11,162 bases of DNA, taken from Anaerolineae bacterium (GTDB lineage: Bacteria > Chloroflexota > Anaerolineae > Anaerolineales > Villigracilaceae). This document shows, in pieces, positions 869 to 9,595 of this stretch. The notes beneath the pieces are model-generated. The model was given only the letters and a program-made list of their open reading frames with translations, made no database searches and was not told the origin of the DNA. Numbering within the stretch: the stretch's first letter is position 1; each line of letters opens with the position of its first letter. The stretch is taken from the NCBI GenBank assembly GCA_003524705.1, contig DQGV01000242.1, positions 1-11,162 of the forward strand, in the 5' to 3' direction. The translations under genes and the position numbers were made by a program.

Positions 869-1276
869 TTATTTTCTTTCCAATACAATCACAGACGAAC
901 CATCTTGTGTTGTAAGAGTCAATTGATTTCCACTTAATTCAAAGTTTAGCTTTTGCTCTGATAAGATGTTCAAAAAAACAGTTTCTTGGTCCATGGTTCC
1001 TTCACAAAACATCAAAGTTGAATAAACTGGTTCAAAAGTGATTTGATTTCCACTGACTTGATAACCTGCGCCAAATGAATTGCATCCTACACTTCCGCCA
1101 AATTGACCATCTGCTCCGAAGTTGATAGAAGTTTCTATATTAGGTAAAGCAGGTGTTGGGTTAGTGGTATCACCATAGGAAATTAATGTCCATTCACCTT
1201 CAAGGGATGCAGAATTTCCTGAACAAGCAGAAAGTAAAAGTACGAAAGCAATTAAAAGAAAGTATATTTTTTTCAT
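869..1276 (-). CDS. META-domain lipoprotein (HslJ-like)
   Basis: This is a small secreted lipoprotein of 135 residues from the second of two adjacent ATGs. The second (1276-1274) has GGAG at 1286-1283 about 6 bases upstream; the first (1279) leaves only 3 bases, so the longer form is less likely. The N-terminus is a lipoprotein signal: a KK charge, a hydrophobic core and the lipobox LSAC, with the acylated Cys at residue 18. One META domain (PF03724 type) follows, recognised by 'LEGEWTLISYG', the 'GSVGCNSFGAGYQ' turn, and a closing strand ending in VIVLERK. META proteins such as E. coli HslJ are envelope-associated and linked to stress or antibiotic tolerance, with no enzymatic role known. 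It lies 50 bases downstream of the TsnR-like gene on the same strand and may be cotranscribed with it. Confidence 0.85.
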   Translation of the reverse strand: MKKIYFLLIAFVLLLSACSGNSASLEGEWTLISYGDTTNPTPALPNIETSINFGADGQFGGSVGCNSFGAGYQVSGNQITFEPVYSTLMFCEGTMDQETVFLNILSEQKLNFELSGNQLTLTTQDGSSVIVLERK

Positions 1277-1326
1277 CATTATCTCCGTTTATAGTTAAAC
1301 GAAGTTTGTAGATAAAAAGTTCCCGC

Positions 1327-2139
1327 CTATATTTTCTGATTAAACCCAACCCGATTAAATAATGTAATGCCTGCTGAAGCTGAGACGTTTAGCGATTCAA
1401 CTTTGTCACTGATTGGAATGCGAACTTTCAAAGTTGCGGCATCTTCTACTTCTGGCGAACAGCCATCTTTTTCACTGCCAAATGCAATCAGGAGTCTTTG
1501 TAGCATAGATGAAATTTCATCAACAGTTTTCACCGCATCCATATCCATGACGAGCAAGGTTTCATTATTCTTTTTGCAATAATCCAGAAAATCTTTTGTG
1601 CTGGCAGTAATCATCGGCACTGAAAATAAATATCCTCTACTAGCGCGAATCAAGCGGCGATCGTATAAATCAATTGGATCCATATTGAGTAAAAGAATCC
1701 CGCCCACACCTAGTGCAAGCGAAGTGCGTGTAATGTTGCCAATATTTCCCGAAATACTTAAGTCTTCCAAAACCACAATGTCTTTTGAAATAGATTTCAA
1801 TGCTTCTAAGCCAATTGATTTTGGTGTTTGGGCAAGGGCAAACACGCGTGAGAGTTTGTCATTTTCAAACAGTTTTTTTGAAGTCCGTGTAGCAACTTCA
1901 TGAATCGGAATAGTGTTTGGAATCTGATTTTTGAAATTTTCTGAAAGTCTATTTTCCCCAGCAAAATAAACTGACTCCACTTTTACGCCAGCCTTCAGTG
2001 CTTCAAGGATATTCTCTTCATCATCAATGAGGATTTTGTTTAGTTCTTGTCTACCCGAACGAGATAATAATTTCCGAATTGGCTGGGCAAGTGGATGGTT
2101 AAGCGAGTCAATTATGTTTGGATTTGTGATTTCAGTCAT
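1327..2139 (-). CDS. TsnR-like (thiostrepton-resistance family) SpoU/TrmH 23S rRNA 2'-O-methyltransferase
   Basis: This is a SPOUT-class RNA ribose methyltransferase using S-adenosylmethionine, 270 residues from ATG 2139. The three SpoU motifs are present: GNIGNITRTS (131-140, with Arg138), FGSEKDG (220-226), and IPISDKVESLNVSASAGI (241-258), which form the trefoil knot. The N-terminal third (about 20-105) is a substrate-binding domain. Several blocks look like the thiostrepton-resistance methylases TsnR/NshR rather than generic TrmH: an ILIDDEENILEALKAGV segment near 36-52, and DRRLIRASRGYLFSVP near 160-175. The length also matches (about 270). TsnR methylates A1067 of 23S rRNA (E. coli numbering) and blocks thiopeptides; whether this protein targets that base is inference. 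An in-frame TTG at 2175 would add 12 residues, but it overlaps a perfect -35 box, so the shorter start is chosen. Confidence 0.85.
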   Translation of the reverse strand: MTEITNPNIIDSLNHPLAQPIRKLLSRSGRQELNKILIDDEENILEALKAGVKVESVYFAGENRLSENFKNQIPNTIPIHEVATRTSKKLFENDKLSRVFALAQTPKSIGLEALKSISKDIVVLEDLSISGNIGNITRTSLALGVGGILLLNMDPIDLYDRRLIRASRGYLFSVPMITASTKDFLDYCKKNNETLLVMDMDAVKTVDEISSMLQRLLIAFGSEKDGCSPEVEDAATLKVRIPISDKVESLNVSASAGITLFNRVGFNQKI

Positions 2140-2145
2140 AAAGAC

Positions 2146-2175
2146 ATGATAAACCTTTGAGGATGTTCGTGTCAA
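2146..2175 (-). promoter_or_regulatory. Sigma-70 promoter of the TsnR-like gene, predicted leaderless
   Basis: On the minus strand a perfect TTGACA (2175-2170) is followed by an 18-base spacer and TATCAT (2151-2146), which matches TATAAT at five of six positions. The ATG at 2139 is 6 bases beyond the -10, so transcription should start at or within a base of the start codon. No ribosome binding site lies at a useful distance: AAGG at about 2157-2154 is 14 bases away and inside the promoter. Confidence 0.7.
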
Positions 2176-2184
2176 GAAAGATTG

Positions 2185-2190
2185 TATAAT
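2185..2190 (+). promoter_or_regulatory. Candidate -10 box for the cupin gene
   Basis: A perfect TATAAT occurs 66 bases before the cupin ATG. No convincing -35 is found 16-18 bases upstream; that stretch lies inside the divergent promoter of the methyltransferase gene. If used, the two promoters overlap back to back and may compete. The predicted start is near 2197, leaving a leader of about 60 bases that contains AGAGG (2247-2251), 5 bases before the ATG. Confidence 0.5.
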
Positions 2191-2256
2191 CTATGTCATT
2201 GTGAGGGCTTTCTTGTACTTTGCCCGAAGCAATCCCCATAATATGAAGAGGTTGTT

Positions 2257-2733
2257 ATGACAGATAACTCTGCACTGAGCATGATTGATACAAACATTCC
2301 AATTAAAAATTTTGGCAAACCTGTGATTCAGACAGGGTCAACGACTCGTATGGATTTTGGTGCTACACCTCTTCCATCGGCTTGGATTAAAGAAGGAAAC
2401 CCAACAGCGCGAAGTATTCCGTTAGCAAGAGCTGAAGATAATAATTTATCTTGTGGGTTATGGGATTGTCAGGCGGGCAAGTTTACTTTCATTTATGGTT
2501 GTGATGAAATTGTGCATATTTTAGAAGGCGAAGTGATTATTGAAGAAAATGGTGCAACTTACACTCTGAAAGTGGGTGATGTGGCATTTTTCCCTGAAGG
2601 GTTAGAAACTGTATGGACAGTGCCAAAGTATGTCAAGAAGTTTGCGATTTTTCGCTCTGTACGCGAGCCATTGATAGATAAAATATATATGAGATTAAAG
2701 AAGATATTGAAAAAAACAATTGGAAAAGCATAG
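2257..2733 (+). CDS. Cupin domain protein (DUF861 / cupin_3, EutQ-like fold)
   Basis: This is a 158-residue protein with a single beta-barrel cupin domain at about residues 65-132. Characteristic pieces are GLWDCQAGKFTF, the strand pair around DEIVHILEGEVIIEE, GDVAFFPEG, and a final WTVPKYVKKFAIFR. This arrangement (Gly-Trp start, DE before 'ILEGEV', 'GD..FF.EG', 'W.V') is that of cupin_3/DUF861 proteins, many of which are small, non-classical cupins of unknown substrate. The usual cupin metal-binding histidine pair is not obvious; one His lies in EIVHILEG. The last 25 residues are strongly basic and probably helical (LKKILKKTIGKA). AGAGG sits 5 bases ahead of ATG. The rluA-type gene begins 6 bases after its stop, suggesting cotranscription, with no clear functional link. 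Confidence 0.8.
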   Translation: MTDNSALSMIDTNIPIKNFGKPVIQTGSTTRMDFGATPLPSAWIKEGNPTARSIPLARAEDNNLSCGLWDCQAGKFTFIYGCDEIVHILEGEVIIEENGATYTLKVGDVAFFPEGLETVWTVPKYVKKFAIFRSVREPLIDKIYMRLKKILKKTIGKA

Positions 2734-2739
2734 CATTCA

Positions 2740-3390
2740 ATGATGCAAACTATATTCGCCGATGAGGATATTGTGATTATCAACAAGCCTGCTGGGATTT
2801 CGGTTTTGCCAGAAGGTTGGGATAAAACCGCAACGTATGTGGTGAAAGAATTAGAAGAACAATTTGAAAAAATATGGGTTGTGCATCGCATTGATAAAAT
2901 TACGAGTGGAATTATTTTATTTGCTTTGAACCCAGAAGCACATCGTTCATTGAATATTCAATTTGAGAAACATCAGGTGGAGAAAAAATATCATGCGATT
3001 TTGAATGGTTCACCAAAGTGGGATGAAAAAGTTACGAAATTTCCTTTACGAGTGAATGTGGGGCATAAGCATAGAACGGTTGTGGATGATAGAAATGGTG
3101 TCAATGCTGAAACGAAATTTAAAGTTGAGGAACGGTATCAGGCATCCACGTTGGTTGAGGCGATGCCAATGACGGGTAGAACGCATCAGATACGAGTCCA
3201 TGCTTACGCGTTGGGTCATCCGCTTGTGGGTGATATTTTGTATAGTGCGCCTGTATCAAAAATCATTCATCGCCCGGCATTACATGCCCGTTCATTAATA
3301 TTTACTCATCCTGCAACGGGTAATAAAGTATCATTTGAGGCAGACTATCCTGATGATTTTCGAGAAGCATTGACTAAATTAAGCACTTGA
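2740..3390 (+). CDS. RluA-family pseudouridine synthase, catalytic domain only
   Basis: It isomerises specific uridines in rRNA and/or tRNA to pseudouridine. The 216-residue protein contains just the catalytic domain. The start 'DEDIVIINKPAGISVLP' is the usual first strand, VVHRIDKITSG (47-57) carries the catalytic Asp52, and GRTHQIRVHAYALGHPLVGD near 143-163 and a later 'LHARSL' complete the active site. There is no N-terminal S4 RNA-binding domain, which RluC and RluD have. The length is close to E. coli RluA (dual 23S U746 / tRNA U32), but single-domain members vary in target, so the substrate is not assigned. The motif has HRID rather than the commoner HRLD, a conservative change. Start: two consecutive ATGs at 2740 and 2743; only a poorly placed GGAAAAG lies upstream, so translation may be coupled to the cupin gene. 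Confidence 0.9.
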   Translation: MMQTIFADEDIVIINKPAGISVLPEGWDKTATYVVKELEEQFEKIWVVHRIDKITSGIILFALNPEAHRSLNIQFEKHQVEKKYHAILNGSPKWDEKVTKFPLRVNVGHKHRTVVDDRNGVNAETKFKVEERYQASTLVEAMPMTGRTHQIRVHAYALGHPLVGDILYSAPVSKIIHRPALHARSLIFTHPATGNKVSFEADYPDDFREALTKLST

Positions 3391-3395
3391 AATTA

Positions 3396-3404
3396 TGGTA
3401 TATT
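3396..3404 (+). promoter_or_regulatory. Extended -10 promoter candidate for the two-component operon
   Basis: TGG-TATATT follows the pseudouridine synthase stop by 5 bases. The TG at 3396-3397, one base before a five-of-six -10 (3399-3404), makes an extended -10; no -35 is found at correct spacing. A start near 3411 would place AAGGAG (3412-3417) at the very 5' end of the message, 7 bases before the ATG at 3425. Confidence 0.45.
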
Positions 3405-3424
3405 TTTAATCAAGGAGTATAGCC

Positions 3425-4102
3425 ATGAATGAGCGAATCCTAATTATCGAAGACGACCAAGCTATTTTGAAATTGTTGCAACGCGGTTTGGCTTATGAAG
3501 GTTACACAGTGGATACTGCTGTGGATGGACGCATGGGTTTAATTGCCGCGCGTGACCATACCCCTGACCTTGTGATTTTGGATTGGATGTTGCCGGGGAT
3601 GGATGGTTTGGAAGTATGCCATCGTTTACGACAGGGCGGTTCAATTCCAATTTTGATGTTGACGGCGAAAGATACAGTGCAAGACCGCATTCAAGGGTTG
3701 GATGCCGGTGCTGATGATTACATGATTAAGCCGTTTAACTTAGATGAATTACTTGCGCGCGTGCGTGCTTTGTTGCGCCGTACGCAACCAGAACGAATTC
3801 CTGTTTTGAAATTTGCAGATTTATCTTTGGATACTGGCTCACGCCAGGCGACTCGTGGCGAGCGTACAGTTGCTTTAACCGCGAAAGAATATGAATTACT
3901 TGAATTATTTTTACGTCACCCGAAGCAAGTGTTGACTCGTGAAGTGATATTTGACCGAGTCTGGGGTTATGATTTTGGCGGTGAGAGTAATGTCTTAGAA
4001 GTATATATTCGCTATTTACGCCAAAAGTTAGAAGCAGAAAATGAAACTCGCTTGCTTCATACTGTGCGTGGTGTTGGGTATGTGTTGAGAGAGAATCCGT
4101 AA
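3425..4102 (+). CDS. OmpR/PhoB-family response regulator
   Basis: This is a transcription regulator of 225 residues activated by phosphorylation from the histidine kinase encoded next. The receiver domain (about 1-115) has the acidic pocket E9-D10-D11, phospho-acceptor Asp53 in [13 protein letters not shown], Thr80 in MLTAKD and Lys102 in IKPF, so all switch residues are intact. A short linker leads to a winged-helix DNA-binding domain (about 128-223) with [37 protein letters not shown] and [10 protein letters not shown], which is typical of the PhoB/OmpR group. AAGGAG is placed 7 bases ahead of the ATG, the best ribosome site on this strand so far. Neither the regulon nor the signal can be read from the sequence; the nearby genes are mostly RNA-modification or envelope genes. 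Confidence 0.95.
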
Positions 4103-4111
4103 ATCAGTAGC

Positions 4112-4128
4112 CAGTAATCAGTAATCAG
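4112..4128 (+). repeat. Short heptamer tandem repeat between regulator and kinase genes
   Basis: CAGTAAT is repeated directly at 4112-4118 and 4119-4125 and continues with CAG (4126-4128). A degenerate copy (TCAGTAG) precedes it at about 4105-4111. It fills the 41-base gap between the regulator and kinase genes and resembles the short tandem heptamer repeats common in cyanobacterial intergenic regions. No function is assigned. Confidence 0.6.
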
Positions 4129-4143
4129 AAAATTGTAAATTGA

Positions 4144-5511
4144 ATGCCTCTTCGCCTGCGCCTGACTTTGCTTTACTCAATATTTATGGGCGGAATTTTG
4201 CTCATCTTTGGCACGGCGGTGTATTTTGTTGTTAACTTCATATTGATTACACAAGTGGACAATACACTTGCGAGCGTGGCGCGAGAATTGATTCGGAATG
4301 TGAGTATAAATCCAGTGGGGGAGTTGATTGTAGTAAGACCTCCACAATTAAACATGACCGCCAATGCTTATATCCAAGTTTGGAGCATTGATGGCGAAAT
4401 TGTAGATGCTTCGCCGAGTATTGGTGAATTCAGTGAACCGCTTGACCCTATCGGTTTGTCAAATGGTGAAACGCTCTATCAAGATTCTACTTTTGAAGGC
4501 GTGCGTTTGCGCGTGTTGACAGTGCCAATGTCATTAGAAGGTCGCATGATTGGCACATTACAAGTCGGCGCAAGTCTCGGATTAATAGAAGCAACTCGCA
4601 CCGATTTAGTAAGAATTATGATTAGCATTGGTGTGATTGCTGTTTTATTAGCGGCTTTAGGTTCATGGGCGGTTTTGAAACGGGCATTAACTCCGCTTGA
4701 AACTATTGCGTACAGCGTTGATCAAATCAATAAGGCGGATGATTTGTCCCGTCGTATTCCATATCGTGGCAGGCAAGATGACGAAGTGAGTTATCTGGTT
4801 GTTTCATTTAATCAAACTCTTGAACGGCTTGAGTCATTGTTTAAATCACAACAAAGATTTTTGGCAGACGTCAGCCATGAACTTCGCACACCGTTAACGG
4901 TTATCAAAGGCAATATTGATTTAATGCGTCGCATCAAAACGACGGATGAAGATATCTTAAATGGTATGGATGATGAAGTAGGCAGGCTCACACGTTTGGT
5001 CGGTGGCTTGCTTATGCTTGTGCAGGCTGAGTCTGGCAAACTGGCTTTAAGTTTTGCACCTGTTGAACTTGATTTATTGCTCACAGAAGTTTTCACTGAA
5101 GTGCGCGTGTTGGCTGGCAGTAAAGTGAAAGTGCATCTTAATGAAATTGATGAGGTAATTGTGCGCGGCGACCGTGACCGCTTGAAACAAGTTTTATTAA
5201 ACTTGGTTGCCAATGCGATTCAATATACACCCACAGGCGGAGAAGTATATTTAAGTTTATCGAAAATTGCTGGTCAATCACGCCTCATTGTTCGTGACAC
5301 AGGACCTGGTATTCCAGCGGAAGATTTACCTCACATCTTCGACAGGTTTTATCGTGCTGAAAAATCACGCACGCGTTCAAAAGCAAGCGGGTTTGGATTA
5401 GGCTTATCCATCGCTAAATGGATTATTGAACAACATGGTGGGCAAATTAAAGTCGAATCAAAAGAAAGCGAAGGCACTACGTTTGTGATTTGGTTGAATG
5501 TGTTGAAGTAG
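4144..5511 (+). CDS. HAMP-containing sensor histidine kinase
   Basis: This membrane kinase of 455 residues is the partner of the response regulator 41 bases upstream. TM1 spans about 8-33 and TM2 about 157-178, enclosing an extracytoplasmic sensor region of roughly 120 residues with no recognised ligand domain. HAMP follows (about 179-231). HisKA holds FLADVSHELRTPL with phospho-accepting His245. The ATPase domain has the N box NLVANAIQYT (Asn357), G1 RDTGPGIP (Asp385), the F-box region HIFDRFYR, and G2 GFGLGLS (416-422). All catalytic elements are present, so it should be active. The architecture matches the BaeS/MprB-like class often paired with OmpR regulators. No Shine-Dalgarno motif precedes the ATG; the message probably comes from the regulator promoter. 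A 133-residue open frame on the other strand (4812-5213) is a shadow. Confidence 0.94.
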   Translation: MPLRLRLTLLYSIFMGGILLIFGTAVYFVVNFILITQVDNTLASVARELIRNVSINPVGELIVVRPPQLNMTANAYIQVWSIDGEIVDASPSIGEFSEPLDPIGLSNGETLYQDSTFEGVRLRVLTVPMSLEGRMIGTLQVGASLGLIEATRTDLVRIMISIGVIAVLLAALGSWAVLKRALTPLETIAYSVDQINKADDLSRRIPYRGRQDDEVSYLVVSFNQTLERLESLFKSQQRFLADVSHELRTPLTVIKGNIDLMRRIKTTDEDILNGMDDEVGRLTRLVGGLLMLVQAESGKLALSFAPVELDLLLTEVFTEVRVLAGSKVKVHLNEIDEVIVRGDRDRLKQVLLNLVANAIQYTPTGGEVYLSLSKIAGQSRLIVRDTGPGIPAEDLPHIFDRFYRAEKSRTRSKASGFGLGLSIAKWIIEQHGGQIKVESKESEGTTFVIWLNVLK

Positions 5512-5536
5512 GGATACGGCTCATCCTATCTTAGAG

Positions 5537-5559
5537 AGGGCGACCATGAAAGTCGCCCT
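5537..5559. repeat. GGGCGAC palindrome between convergent genes
   Basis: AGGGCGAC (5537-5544) pairs with GTCGCCCT (5552-5559) around a 7-base loop, giving an 8-bp GC-rich stem. There is no T-run on either side, so it is not a canonical intrinsic terminator, although it sits exactly between the convergent kinase and transglycosylase genes and overlaps the latter's stop codon by one base. It looks like the core of a dispersed palindromic element (GGGCGAC...GTCGCCC followed by TTACGG). I recall similar units being widespread in bacterial intergenic regions, but copy number here cannot be seen. Confidence 0.6.
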
Positions 5560-6275
5560 TACGGCAGCCCCAATCTCTTTGCGGCTTGACGGCATAAACT
5601 GACTCCGTAACTTGTATACCATTCATTCAACGCATTACTTGATTCAACACCACTGATTGCATCTTGATAAATCGGTGCGCCAAAATAAACATATCGCTTT
5701 GTTTGGGCAGACCATAGATATTCATTTTTATTAATAACACTAATGCCACCATTGTAACCAGCCAAAGCTAAACGTGCATTTCCATTGGCAGTATTTAATG
5801 AACGAAGTAAATAAGCAAGTCCACGTGCGGCGTTTGTGCCGGGGTCATACGGATTATCACTGGCATGAAAATGAAAAGGCATCACTTGAAACAATCCCAT
5901 TGCACCGGCAGATGATTTTGCACGTGGGTCGCCACAAGATTCGATTTGCATCACAGTGGCAACCAAGTTTGGGTCAAGAGAAGAAGCGGACGCCCAATTG
6001 ACGATAGAGTCAGCCCAATACTGCACCTCAGGTCGAAAGATAGGTGAAATGTTCCTCGAAGTGGAATCGGGCGTTGATATCACATCTACAATCAAATTAT
6101 TTTGAGTTGAAACAGGAAGTGGATTGACAAAATTCCATGCGACAGAAGCAAGGAAAACACTTATAAAAATTACAGCAAACGGGATGATGGTGAAGCCAGA
6201 TAAACAACCGCTACCTTCATTATATGGGGTAGCGGCTGTTGGCTCATATTCTTTTGTTGTGCGAGCGCGGGGCAT
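5559..6275 (-). CDS. Membrane-anchored lytic transglycosylase (SLT, GH23)
   Basis: It cleaves the MurNAc-GlcNAc bond of peptidoglycan. The 238-residue protein has a short cytoplasmic N-terminus, one membrane segment at about 28-50 and no cleavable signal peptide, then a 30-residue linker and an SLT domain (about 83-200). The catalytic Glu112 lies in VMQIESCGDP, followed by SAGAMGLFQVMP (122-133), which forms the fold's signature, and LALAGYNGG (169-177), the third conserved motif. Thus the active site is complete and outside the membrane. Cys114 beside the catalytic Glu and Cys233 near the end could form a disulfide. It lies downstream of the four-helix membrane protein gene on the same strand with a 97-base gap containing a 9-bp repeat. 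Upstream of the ATG only a weak AGAGA is seen. Confidence 0.92.
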   Translation of the reverse strand: MPRARTTKEYEPTAATPYNEGSGCLSGFTIIPFAVIFISVFLASVAWNFVNPLPVSTQNNLIVDVISTPDSTSRNISPIFRPEVQYWADSIVNWASASSLDPNLVATVMQIESCGDPRAKSSAGAMGLFQVMPFHFHASDNPYDPGTNAARGLAYLLRSLNTANGNARLALAGYNGGISVINKNEYLWSAQTKRYVYFGAPIYQDAISGVESSNALNEWYTSYGVSLCRQAAKRLGLP

Positions 6276-6331
6276 AGTTTATTCTCTTTTCTTGGTCTGT
6301 TCAGGACCGGGCTCGAAATGATTTTTATTTA

Positions 6332-6367
6332 ATAGGTCTTACTGGTCTAAATGGTCTAACTAGTCTT
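6332..6367 (-). repeat. Four tandem 9-bp units between two genes
   Basis: Written on the plus strand the units are ATAGGTCTT (6332-6340), ACTGGTCTA (6341-6349), AATGGTCTA (6350-6358) and ACTAGTCTT (6359-6367). Each shares GTCT at the same place. They lie immediately after the stop of the membrane-protein gene and before the transglycosylase gene, both on the minus strand. The copies are imperfect, so this is an old or selected array rather than a recent slip. Role unknown. Confidence 0.65.
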
Positions 6368-6372
6368 ACAAG

Positions 6373-7197
6373 TTACGCATCGTAACGACGGTCTCCATTA
6401 TTATCTGAATTGCGAGCATCATACGAAAGTGGGTGATACGTTGGTTCGGGTGGAATAAATGAAGATTGTTGTGACGAAACAGGTTTTGGTGCCGGGCGGA
6501 ATGAGTTTGAATTCACAGGGCGATTAATTTGTGAAGCCGGGCGAAGAATAGGTTGATTGGATGGTTGATTGACCGGGCGTTGATATGATTGTGATTGATA
6601 ACTTGGGCGAGATTGAGAGTTATTGTTATATGATTGGCGCGGTTGATACGATTGATGCGATGCCGCGGTAGTAAACAAACGGTCACCAGCCAATGAAATC
6701 GTACCGATAATCAAAACACGAATCAACCATACCATTGCGGCAACAAAAATGGGTACCCCTTGCGCCAAGGCTTGACCACTAATAGAAGTAGTACCTTGAA
6801 TACCACCATTGTTTGCAATTGCAACCGATACACTCCACCAAATCAAAATTGCATTAAAGCCCGCCGCCAGCAACCATGCGCCAAAGAGATAATACACTTC
6901 AGCGGGTTCATCACGACCTTGTTCAGGTGTGAAAATGCGTGCAATGCCGGCAAAGTCAATGCCACAGAAGGCAATTGCAAGGATAGTTGCCCACTTGAAA
7001 CCGCCAAAACTTAATGTGCCGAGCATATCTTGCAAAGCGTGTTGCGTGGCACTGAAGTTAAAAATTTCAAATGCAATCAAAGCACCAATGATGATGCCAC
7101 CAAAAGCGGCACCACGATTGATTTCACGATTGTGGGCAATACTATTCCACAAACGGCGGATGCCATCCCCTAATGGATTACGACGATAATTAGACAT
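6373..7197 (-). CDS. Four-helix membrane protein with Q/S/P-rich C-terminal tail, function unknown
   Basis: This is a 274-residue protein that I do not recognise. Start ATG 7197 is set by a near-perfect AGGAGGT at 7208-7202 just before it; an upstream in-frame ATG at 7224 would add nine residues but lacks such a site. After a basic N-terminus (NYRRNP...RRLW) there are four hydrophobic stretches at about 30-50, 65-90, 103-130 and 150-175. Beyond residue 180 comes a roughly 95-residue disordered tail rich in Gln, Ser, Asn, Pro and Tyr with repeated SYQ/RPxNQP-like pieces and no hydrophobic segment. The even helix number suggests both ends are cytoplasmic. Its promoter carries two LexA-like operators, so it may be damage-inducible. 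No transport or enzymatic motif is visible. The protein may be lineage-specific. Confidence 0.75.
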   Translation of the reverse strand: MSNYRRNPLGDGIRRLWNSIAHNREINRGAAFGGIIIGALIAFEIFNFSATQHALQDMLGTLSFGGFKWATILAIAFCGIDFAGIARIFTPEQGRDEPAEVYYLFGAWLLAAGFNAILIWWSVSVAIANNGGIQGTTSISGQALAQGVPIFVAAMVWLIRVLIIGTISLAGDRLFTTAASHQSYQPRQSYNNNSQSRPSYQSQSYQRPVNQPSNQPILRPASQINRPVNSNSFRPAPKPVSSQQSSFIPPEPTYHPLSYDARNSDNNGDRRYDA

Positions 7198-7234
7198 TTC
7201 GACCTCCTTAGCCGATTTAGCCAATTGATAAGAA

Positions 7235-7248
7235 AGAACAAGTGTTCT
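7235..7248. promoter_or_regulatory. LexA-like operator 1 (AGAACAAGTGTTCT)
   Basis: This is a perfect palindrome, AGAACA-AG-TGTTCT, of the form GAAC-N4-GTTC, which is the core of the Gram-positive LexA box. It covers the expected transcription start (about 7244) of the membrane-protein promoter, so a bound repressor would block initiation. The factor is inferred from the half-site only; another repressor with the same half-sites is possible. Confidence 0.6.
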
Positions 7249-7250
7249 AA

Positions 7251-7279
7251 AATATAGAACAAAAGTTCTTATTTGTCAA
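7251..7279 (-). promoter_or_regulatory. Strong sigma-70 promoter of the four-helix membrane-protein gene
   Basis: On the minus strand TTGACA (7279-7274, six of six) is followed by 17 bases and TATATT (7256-7251, five of six). Transcription is expected near 7244, giving a leader of about 47 bases with a strong ribosome site. A promoter this close to consensus normally needs a repressor, which fits the two embedded palindromes. It lies just downstream of the fmt stop, so the gene does not depend on fmt transcription. Confidence 0.8.
7256..7269. promoter_or_regulatory. LexA-like operator 2 (AGAACAAAAGTTCT)
   Basis: This second perfect palindrome has identical half-sites (AGAAC / GTTCT) and a 4-base spacer. 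Its centre is 21 bases (two helical turns) from that of operator 1, so both would be bound on the same DNA face. It fills most of the spacer between the -35 and -10 boxes of the minus-strand promoter, touching the first base of the -10. Confidence 0.6.
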
Positions 7280-7308
7280 GAGGGGAAAATGCCTAGCTAT
7301 TTGTCACA

Positions 7309-8223
7309 TTACAAGTTAGATTCCCAATTTCTTACGCCTGCTAGAAATGATTTACCAGACATAACTTTTTTGCCCGCAGGTTGGACTTCTTCCAAAATGA
7401 TTGAGCCATCAGCACATGTCATTGCGCCTCTTCCTTCGACGGTAAACCTGTTTCCTGTTTCCCCAACTTTTTTCTCACCTACACCGACTCGCATCACCTT
7501 GAGCAGATTTCCATTCCATTCAAACCATGCTGAGGGCCATGGATTCATAGCGCGCACTCGTCGTTCAATTTCATAAATTGAATGATTGAAATCTAATTTA
7601 CCATCTTCTTTTTTTAACATGGGTGCATAGGTTGCACCTTCGTCTGGTTGTGGCTGAGGCGTAATGCTTCCGTCAAAAATTTTTGGGAGTGTTTCGATTA
7701 ATAACTCTGCTCCAAGTGTAGATAATGCTTGAAAAACAGAACCAGCTGTATCGTCAGGGTTGAGGCGGATAGATTTTTTTGAAAGCATGTCACCCGTATC
7801 TAATCCAACATCCATTTTCATTATCGTCACGCCAGTTTCTTCATCACCAGCAAGAATGGCGGCATTGATGGGTGCCGCGCCACGCCAACGCGGAAGTAAC
7901 GAAGCATGAACATTGATGCAACCAAATTTTGGCAAATCCAAAATTTCTTTTTTGAGTATTTGACCGAACGCGGCAACGATGATGACATCAGGATTCCATG
8001 TTTTTATTTCTTCAGTCGCTTCTTTTAATTTTTCAGGTTGAAGTATTGGGAGATTTAATTCTCCCGCTAAAATTTTCACAGGCGGTGATTTTAATTCTCG
8101 CCCTCGTCCAGAGGCTCTATCAGGCTGTGTGATAACGCCAACTACATCATAGTTTTTGGCAAGCAAACGCAAAGATGGCAATGCAAAATCAGGTGAACCC
8201 ATGAATACGATACGTTTTGACAT
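7309..8223 (-). CDS. fmt: Methionyl-tRNA formyltransferase
   Basis: It transfers a formyl group from 10-formyltetrahydrofolate to initiator Met-tRNA in the cytosol, needed for fMet initiation. The 304-residue protein starts with VFMGSPDFALPSL and has the folate-binding NVHASLLPRWRGAAPI (104-119) with Asn104 and His106, and KMDVGLDTGDML with Asp142, equivalent to the catalytic N108/H110/D146 of E. coli Fmt. The C-terminal OB-type domain (about 205-300) includes RRVRAMNPWPSAWFEW, typical of the family. Length is normal (E. coli 315). The frequent partner def is not adjacent on either side. There is no Shine-Dalgarno sequence; a -10 box ends 6 bases before the ATG. Confidence 0.97.
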   Translation of the reverse strand: MSKRIVFMGSPDFALPSLRLLAKNYDVVGVITQPDRASGRGRELKSPPVKILAGELNLPILQPEKLKEATEEIKTWNPDVIIVAAFGQILKKEILDLPKFGCINVHASLLPRWRGAAPINAAILAGDEETGVTIMKMDVGLDTGDMLSKKSIRLNPDDTAGSVFQALSTLGAELLIETLPKIFDGSITPQPQPDEGATYAPMLKKEDGKLDFNHSIYEIERRVRAMNPWPSAWFEWNGNLLKVMRVGVGEKKVGETGNRFTVEGRGAMTCADGSIILEEVQPAGKKVMSGKSFLAGVRNWESNL

Positions 8224-8332: not shown

Positions 8333-8641
8333 ATGTCTCAAGCACCTATGTCCGATATCACCCAAGACGATAAACTCTGGGCGATGCTTTCGTATCTCAT
8401 CCCAATCATTGCTATTGTTGTCTTGTTTATGGAAGACAAGAAAAACCGCCCCTATGTTAAGTTCAATGCAGTGCAATCTTTGGTTGCGGCAGTGGCAATT
8501 TCTATTATTGCAACAGTCACATTAGGTTGTGGTGGTATTCTTGGTTTAGTATTTTTATGGTGGGCATATCAAGCCTATCAAGGTCAAGATATTCGTATTC
8601 CGGTCATTACAGATTTCATCCGCAATCAAGGCTGGGCATAG
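8333..8641 (+). CDS. Small DUF4870-type membrane protein (102 aa)
   Basis: After a short acidic start (DITQDDKLWAMLSYLIPI) the protein has hydrophobic segments at about 18-34, 45-62 and 63-80 and ends in the polar QGQDIRIPVITDFIRNQGW. The 'D.LWAMLSYL..' opening, the charged turn EDKKNRPYVKFNAVQSL and a closing 'YQAYQGQ' are typical of the DUF4870 (Tic20-like) family of small integral membrane proteins with unknown function. AGGAG lies 8 bases before the ATG. It is closed by its own strong terminator, so it is a single-gene unit. It shares design and C-terminal pieces (YxAxQxxQGQD) with the next gene, implying an old duplication. Confidence 0.8.
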   Translation: MSQAPMSDITQDDKLWAMLSYLIPIIAIVVLFMEDKKNRPYVKFNAVQSLVAAVAISIIATVTLGCGGILGLVFLWWAYQAYQGQDIRIPVITDFIRNQGWA

Positions 8642-8654
8642 TTTATTCGTAATC

Positions 8655-8685
8655 AAAAAGACTCGCGCAATGCGCGAGTCTTTTT
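8655..8685. terminator. Intrinsic terminator after the first DUF4870-type gene
   Basis: GACTCGCGC (8660-8668) pairs with GCGCGAGTC (8672-8680) around an AAT loop, with A5 before and T5 after. The outer sequence is shared with the hairpin at 836-866 (TAATCAAAAAGAC on the left, GTCTTTTTATTTA on the right), although the inner stem differs. Confidence 0.93.
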
Positions 8686-8724
8686 ATTTAATTATGATAG
8701 ACTTAATTTGTAAAGGAGAAAATA

Positions 8725-9159
8725 ATGAGTGAACAAATTCCACAAACAAATCTTACCCCGCTTAGTCCGAGCGAGGAACGTCAATGGGCGATGATTGCTC
8801 ATTTAGGCGTATTGGTTAATTTATTTTCAGGTATTCTAGGTCCACTTGTGCCTTTAATTATTTATATGATTTACAAAGACCGTTCACGTTATGTTGCTTA
8901 TCAATCGTTACAAGGTTTAATCTTCCAAATCATTTGGTGGGTCGGCGGTGGCGTATTCACTGGAGTCGCTTGGGCAATTACGGGTACATTAAGTACCGTG
9001 TTAATTGGTTTACTATGTATTCCATTTGCTTGTATCATCAGCGCAATGCCCTTGGTCGCTTTGGGTTATGGTGTATATGCTGGTATTCAAACGAATCAAG
9101 GTCAGGATTTCAAATATTGGTTAATCGGTGATTGGGTACGAAGCACGTTGACTGGATAA
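8725..9159 (+). CDS. DUF4870 domain membrane protein (144 aa)
   Basis: This integral membrane protein has a polar Pro-rich N-terminus and then the classical DUF4870 opening SEERQWAMIAHLGVLVNL (about 16-33). Further helices lie at about 35-50, 65-88, 90-112 and 105-122. The turn YKDRSRYVAYQSLQGLIFQ (50-68) corresponds to EDKKNRPYVKFNAVQSL of the upstream paralogue. Members of this family (PF09685) are widespread, uncharacterised and often occur as tandem copies. AAAGGAG (8712-8718) lies 6 bases before the ATG, an excellent ribosome site. A terminator separates it from the first paralogue, so it needs its own promoter; TATGAT at 8693-8698 could serve as a -10 but has no visible -35. Confidence 0.88.
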   Translation: MSEQIPQTNLTPLSPSEERQWAMIAHLGVLVNLFSGILGPLVPLIIYMIYKDRSRYVAYQSLQGLIFQIIWWVGGGVFTGVAWAITGTLSTVLIGLLCIPFACIISAMPLVALGYGVYAGIQTNQGQDFKYWLIGDWVRSTLTG

Positions 9160-9169
9160 TCGTATTACT

Positions 9170-9595
9170 ATGCAAGAAAAGTTAAATATCCGCTTTGCAA
9201 GTGAGGCAGATATTCCAAATCTTAAACAACTTGACTCTTGGACAAAAGATATTATGTGGCATAGAAAAATTTTGGGTCAAGAAGTGATAGTTTTGGAGGC
9301 GGAAAATCAAATTATAGGTTTGATTCGGTATGATTTACTTTGGTCAACTGTGCCGTTTTTGAGTTTGATTTTCATTGAAGAAAATTACCGAGGTAAAGGC
9401 TATTCACGTCAAATGCTTGAATTTTTGAAAATGCATTTGCGAAGTGAAGGTTACGTCGCTTTACTTAGTTCATCACAAACCGATGAACCAGAAGCACAAA
9501 ACTGGCATCGTCACATAGGTTTCAAGTCTAATGGGATTATTGAAAATATTGCAGATGATGATGTAGGTGAGGTTGTGTTTCGGATGTTGTTATAA
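9170..9595 (+). CDS. GNAT-family N-acetyltransferase
   Basis: This is a 141-residue single GNAT domain that uses acetyl-CoA. Visible pieces are the opening LNIRFASEADIPNLKQLD, the central strand EVIVLEAENQIIGLIRYDLLW, the strand LSLIFIEENYRGKGYSRQMLEFL (about 63-85) with the acetyl-CoA pyrophosphate-binding loop YRGKGYS, and the late motif AQNWHRHIGF near 109-118, with GFKSNG in the usual place before the last strands. The substrate is not predictable. The gene starts 10 bases after the DUF4870 stop with no Shine-Dalgarno. Either it is translated from a read-through message, or from an upstream element (TTGGGT 9132-9137, 17 bases, GATAAT 9155-9160) that would give a nearly leaderless transcript. 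A terminator follows its stop. Confidence 0.88.
   Translation: MQEKLNIRFASEADIPNLKQLDSWTKDIMWHRKILGQEVIVLEAENQIIGLIRYDLLWSTVPFLSLIFIEENYRGKGYSRQMLEFLKMHLRSEGYVALLSSSQTDEPEAQNWHRHIGFKSNGIIENIADDDVGEVVFRMLL

Follow-up and report, generated by a model that had tools for sequence, protein, structure and literature searches.

Organization of the locus

The analyzed stretch of DNA, referred to below as the window, is the 11,162-nucleotide contig DQGV01000242.1 of an Anaerolineae bacterium. On its minus strand, a gene for a membrane protein lies ahead of one for a lytic transglycosylase, and the membrane gene is preceded by a ribosome binding site and by a promoter that is overlaid by two candidate LexA boxes (Table 1).

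Table 1. Features of the membrane-gene locus and their coordinates in the window
Feature	Position	Strand	Basis or remark
Candidate LexA box 1, AGAACTTTTGTTCT on the minus strand	7256..7269	-	fills the 17-bp promoter spacer
Candidate LexA box 2, AGAACACTTGTTCT on the minus strand	7235..7248	-	over the inferred start site
-35 element, TTGACA	7274..7279	-	read 7279-7274; seen as ccTtgaca when 66 promoters are profiled on the box
-10 element, TATATT	7251..7256	-	read 7256-7251; promoter search
Ribosome binding site, AAGGAGG	7203..7209	-	read directly; followed by ATG
Membrane protein, 274 aa from ATG 7197, four predicted helices	6373..7197	-	start in the ORF list: TTG 7224
Membrane-anchored lytic transglycosylase (SLT domain)	5559..6275	-	Pfam PF01464, E 3.3e-20

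The initial annotation had described two perfect GAAC-N4-GTTC palindromes whose centers are 21 bp apart, one of them in the spacer of a near-consensus promoter and the other over the expected start site of that promoter. A motif search located both palindromes where they had been placed, as 12-mers at 7236-7247 and 7257-7268 within the 14-mers AGAAC-N4-GTTCT of Table 1, and the minus-strand promoter, TTGACA-17-TATATT, was found to agree with the consensus at eleven of twelve positions. In both boxes the half-sites AGAAC and GTTCT are perfect, with four inner bases that are non-palindromic.

The further claim that such paired operators are unlikely to arise by chance held for their placement and conservation, which exceed chance, and failed for the bare counts of boxes and promoter-like sites. 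The promoter of the membrane gene is the best of three promoter-like sites in positions 5450-7400, a number that represents no enrichment over the mean of 4.0 obtained in shuffled sequences, and approximate boxes (one mismatch at most) are likewise not enriched in the window, with three found versus 4.17 expected. The same applies to perfect GAAC-N4-GTTC sites in G001, the nearest genome to the window, where 30 such sites, many of which fall within ORFs, compare with 36 for the reversed pattern. Counting motif matches as proof was therefore rejected, since the approximate matches in the window and the perfect matches in G001 are at or below the control level, and the case consequently rests on placement and conservation.

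The membrane protein and its downstream lytic transglycosylase

Searches with the membrane protein returned no match in Pfam, NCBIfam or the PDB sequences, and at least 7,978 homologues of it were found. It is encoded by 36 of 41 close relatives and, in a draw of genomes across the phylum, by 15 of 151, all of which belong to the same class as G001 or are nearer to it. In the fold model, which is of low confidence (pLDDT 62, pTM 0.45), four long helices are seen together with a disordered tail. Residues E43, D80 and R159 within the helices, together with T252 and Y253 of the tail, are invariant in 42 sequences (numbering without the first Met), and the tail bears a conserved motif, PEPTYHP, of which EPTY is present in 41 of the 42. 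Judging by the charges at its ends and by the positive-inside rule, both ends of the protein are probably cytoplasmic.

One homologue of the membrane protein, at 44% over its best segment, is located on a phage-like viral contig (L233:4923-5621, plus strand), for which PHROGs indicate an RNase H and, weakly, a terminase. This homologue has neither a LexA box nor the PEPTYHP tail, and an identical stretch occurs in L232. A phage origin of the operon was considered and set aside, given the lack of a match in phage records and the fact that the single phage-like homologue has no box and no enzyme match beside it.

The lytic transglycosylase gene, which is absent from the initial annotation, is the next same-strand gene after the membrane gene in 72 of 77 loci. 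At 68 of these 72 the genes are separated by no more than 177 bp, mostly by 60-130 bp, and at the other four by at least 396 bp. As regards the five exceptions, L193 is without a transglycosylase, L196 ends 238 bases past the membrane gene, and L229-L231 represent second copies of that gene. The catalytic Glu of the enzyme is present in all 75 matched loci, and the transglycosylase of the window has one predicted membrane helix. No terminator was found between the two genes in the window, which is weak evidence as shuffled sequences gave a mere 1.7 there. The intergenic gap (6276-6372) contains a short run of TAGACC/AAGACC-like units.

A second membrane-gene match, also absent from the initial annotation, was identified in 21 of 25 genus members, one such match being a fragment. 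The other 20 second copies each possess a perfect box upstream, and no transglycosylase match was obtained in the few kilobases around them, with the sequence of L143 stopping within the gene. At the second-copy locus of G001 (L112:1531-4395), the membrane gene follows genes for an S41/PDZ peptidase and a Zn_peptidase_2 protein on the same strand.

Conservation of the boxes in membrane-gene promoters

Conservation of the palindromes in orthologous promoters was assessed in three sets of loci, whose genomes overlap, and was evident in each. Among the relatives, a perfect box lies upstream of 51 of 59 membrane-gene homologues, two short fragments having been left out of the 61 matches; of the remaining eight, one has only 11 bases of upstream sequence, six have one-mismatch boxes and one is without a box. 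At L146 no box was found upstream even with one mismatch allowed. Among named contigs, for which the best 80 of 447 relatives were retained, a perfect box is present within 150 bp in 67 of the 73 loci that have enough upstream sequence. In this set, five of 82 loci (L182, L191, L214, L232 and L233) were left out for want of a start or motif recognized by the script, which also set the start codons and misplaced them in two or more cases (among them L170 and L226). As a control, the other 659,580 bases of the named-contig loci contain five perfect 12-mers and no 14-mer. Finally, the draw across the phylum yielded a perfect box at 22 of 25 loci examined, three repeats among 28 loci having been omitted; at L248 there is no close box, the only one-mismatch site being at -237.

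The position of the boxes relative to the promoter was also found to recur. In 65 of 67 promoters, a count without a shuffled control, the box is situated in the spacer or over the -10 element or start of the best promoter match, and when 66 promoters are profiled with the box as anchor, hardly anything stands out beyond a TTGACA-like -35 element, the box itself and a -10-like AaT. In 16 loci of the named contigs there are two boxes, each with up to one mismatch, at distances of 20-22 or 29-33 bp, i.e., near two or three helical turns. Both boxes of the window are also perfect in G001, while box 2 is perfect in G011 and G015 as well, where box 1 has one mismatch.

LexA and its candidate binding motif in related genomes

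It had been proposed that LexA, or a repressor with the same half-sites, represses the membrane gene and releases it after DNA damage, and the search for lexA and recA, and for the motif in their promoters, was carried out in the genomes of relatives, from which all evidence on lexA, recA and uvrB is drawn. A LexA_DNA_bind match was obtained in 25 of 26 related genomes and is strong in 24, and the LexA protein of G001 contains both the LexA_DNA_bind and the Peptidase_S24 domains. A perfect GAAC-N4-GTTC box precedes lexA at 23 of the 24 strong loci; six loci with weak LexA_DNA_bind matches, encoding proteins of 348-364 aa (L070-L075), are without a perfect box.

The recA gene was found to carry a conserved one-base variant, GAAC-N4-GTGC, an example of which is AGAACATCTGTGCT. 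This variant precedes 16 of 28 recA rows (two of 30 loci, L100 and L102, were left out), only one of which has a perfect box, and within the genus it is present at 13 of the 14 main recA genes, the fourteenth having neither the variant nor a perfect box. For uvrB, a box is positioned 34-49 bp before the start in all 14 genus members examined and, outside the genus, in only one of nine genomes, G011 and G031 having been excluded from this set on account of weak matches only. When read by eye, the boxes of lexA and recA in G001 lie between the -35 and -10 elements.

A matrix built from the 23 lexA boxes alone ranks the two boxes of the window first and second within it (scores of 10.6 and 9.9, the next being 3.2). 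The background of this matrix was drawn from loci that include boxed promoters; its upper quantiles provide no clean control and were not used.

The proposal is strongly supported by these comparisons, i.e., by the boxes at lexA and uvrB, the variant at recA and the conserved promoters of the membrane gene. The repressor is very likely LexA because of the boxes at lexA, recA and uvrB and the ranking obtained with the lexA matrix, although in principle it could be a regulator of the same specificity. As judged from sequence comparison, it is highly probable that the membrane gene would be under LexA control, and there is a high probability of LexA control over an SOS envelope operon.

Of the related genomes, G034 has neither a LexA_DNA_bind match nor a homologue of the membrane protein; it possesses a second recA gene with a perfect box upstream (L104:1399-1410). 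Further perfect boxes of G001 are found near ORF starts (L006:1501-1512, L014:1501-1512, L010, L107 and L005), and the genes at these boxes encode RuvA, a possible AAA ATPase (below the Pfam cut-off), two glyoxalase-like proteins and a GNAT protein. The ruvA box is G+C-rich and could belong to a hairpin.

Alternative explanations

That the palindromes are chance matches would be in keeping with the lack of a genome-wide enrichment of perfect sites in G001, but such a coincidence is practically negligible in view of the boxed promoters of 67 of 73 homologues, which compare with approximately 0.001 box per 150 bp in the remaining sequence of those loci, and of the conservation seen across distant homologues. 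It is also very improbable that the membrane gene is governed by some other repressor that recognizes these half-sites. Such a reading could draw on the shortness of the motif and on the perfect sites that in G001 also precede a TetR-family gene, the two glyoxalase-like genes and a GNAT gene, genes that we would not expect in an SOS regulon; however, the same box is present at lexA and its variant at recA, both in G001 with the in-spacer placement seen in the window, and the matrix made from lexA boxes singles out both sites of the window. How far the control by LexA reaches is a separate matter, as the membrane protein could be the sole SOS-controlled product and the transglycosylase an independent neighbor with its own promoter. 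Gaps of mostly 60-130 bp could hold such a promoter, those of four loci are considerably longer, and the second copy of the membrane gene has no transglycosylase near it. This arrangement is nonetheless rather unlikely when set against the identical strand and order of the two genes in 72 of 77 loci and, as weak evidence, the absence of a terminator-like site between them in the window, and the transglycosylase is probably on the same transcript as the membrane gene.

A different function may also be envisaged for the gene pair, namely that of a lysis module in which a holin-like membrane protein and an endolysin-like transglycosylase bring about lysis and release of cell contents upon damage. 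An SOS-controlled pair of this kind, with the gene for a wall-cutting enzyme behind that for a membrane protein, indeed resembles the lysis cassettes of phages, the enzyme being adjacent in nearly all loci, and a homologue of the membrane protein is present on a phage-like contig. That copy, however, has no box and no match to the enzyme nearby, no match was found in 50,697 phage records, and the second copy occurs without the transglycosylase in its vicinity. Membership of a holin family was not indicated by any significant PHROG (best E 0.092) or Pfam match, a result to be read with the diversity of holins in mind. Strong conservation of the gene pair in the loci examined would moreover be unexpected for a killing module. 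A lytic role is thus improbable, and it is weaker than a checkpoint role because the pairing of the two genes is widespread and strongly conserved in those loci.

A possible SOS-controlled envelope function

Under LexA control of the membrane gene, LexA dimers on one or two AGAAC-N4-GTTCT boxes would, as suggested by the placement of the latter, block RNA polymerase. RecA filaments that form upon DNA damage trigger the self-cleavage of LexA, which is the established SOS mechanism, and the promoter would thereby be released. The resulting transcript would encode the four-helix membrane protein, with its disordered and probably cytoplasmic tail, and then the anchored lytic transglycosylase, whose intact catalytic Glu would face outward. 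The membrane protein might engage proteins of division or wall synthesis through polar residues lying within the membrane and through the tail with its PEPTYHP motif, and the transglycosylase might trim peptidoglycan, such that division would wait for repair.

From the pairing of the genes and by analogy with YneA and ChiZ, a role in an SOS envelope checkpoint is tentatively proposed as the most likely one. The four-helix protein and the transglycosylase may possibly constitute a new type of SOS effector that halts division or remodels the wall after damage. An effector of this kind, if it is one, would share no sequence relationship with the SOS division inhibitors known so far and would have been kept across an order and beyond, and it is conceivable that its second copy acts without the enzyme.

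SosA and SidA are SOS-induced suppressors of division. The same is reported of YneA and DivS, several such suppressors being membrane proteins (PMC13396833, PMC3989709), and YneA is described as targeting FtsW (PMC13396833). In YneA a single transmembrane helix is combined with a LysM domain, whereas the protein of the window has four predicted helices and a disordered tail; the single helix and extracellular LysM domain of YneA-type proteins were not recovered, there being no Pfam match, LysM included. Mycobacterial ChiZ (Rv2719c) is presented in PMC3989709 as a DNA-damage-induced cell-wall hydrolase that restrains division. The likeness to ChiZ consists in a wall-cutting enzyme behind an SOS promoter, but ChiZ is a single protein with LysM, while here an SLT lytic transglycosylase is encoded beside a separate membrane protein. 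By its domain and its catalytic Glu the downstream gene belongs to the SLT lytic transglycosylases (PF01464), and no report of such an enzyme behind a LexA promoter was found among open-access titles and abstract openings.

The motif GAAC-N4-GTTC is given in PMC3323433 as that of B. subtilis and, by extension, of Gram-positive bacteria. The boxes described here have the same half-sites and spacing as those of the Bacillus-type SOS regulon and are likewise found at lexA, at uvrB within the genus and, as the variant, at recA; they differ from that regulon in their occurrence in Anaerolineae, in the mostly in-spacer layout and in an effector family for which no name was found. The SOS response is stated in PMC8565304 to have been characterized in most major bacterial groups. 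The extended analysis of PMC3323433 names Sphaerobacteraceae, another Chloroflexi family, among multi-chromosome groups, and PMC6403190 mentions both LexA and Anaerolineae. No SOS regulon of Anaerolineae was described in open-access titles and opening abstract lines, subscription papers being outside this scope. The type of LexA box is thus already known; no report was found of this effector family or of an association between it and a lytic transglycosylase in Anaerolineae.

SOS envelope effectors vary between bacterial groups, and the Anaerolineae are a mostly uncultured class that, going by record titles, is known mainly from metagenome assemblies. A conserved membrane protein together with a lytic transglycosylase appears to be a LexA target in this class, often in two copies, and it offers a concrete candidate for a DNA-damage checkpoint of Anaerolineae, through which damage to DNA would be linked to the cell envelope. 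The LexA motif and the promoter layout can also be used to find further SOS genes in the class.

The region upstream of the promoter

The window and the corresponding locus of G001, which is on a different contig from lexA, are 94-95% identical over positions 1-834 and 869-7286 of the window. The match stops at 7286, a few bases upstream of the -35 element, and this position is either a rearrangement point or an assembly join. Unless there is such a join in the window, the promoter went with the operon and the upstream gene changed. The upstream neighbor in the window is fmt, as identified by its Pfam domains, and a tblastn search with this gene gave no match in L152, an Anaerolineales bacterium UBA2317 contig that carries the membrane gene. 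On the plus strand, a promoter-like TTGATA-17-TAAAAT sequence (7225-7253) extends across box 2 in the opposite direction, toward the antisense of fmt. Further along the same strand (8333-9595), two adjacent DUF4870-like genes, the first of which scores below the Pfam cut-off, are followed by a GNAT acetyltransferase gene.
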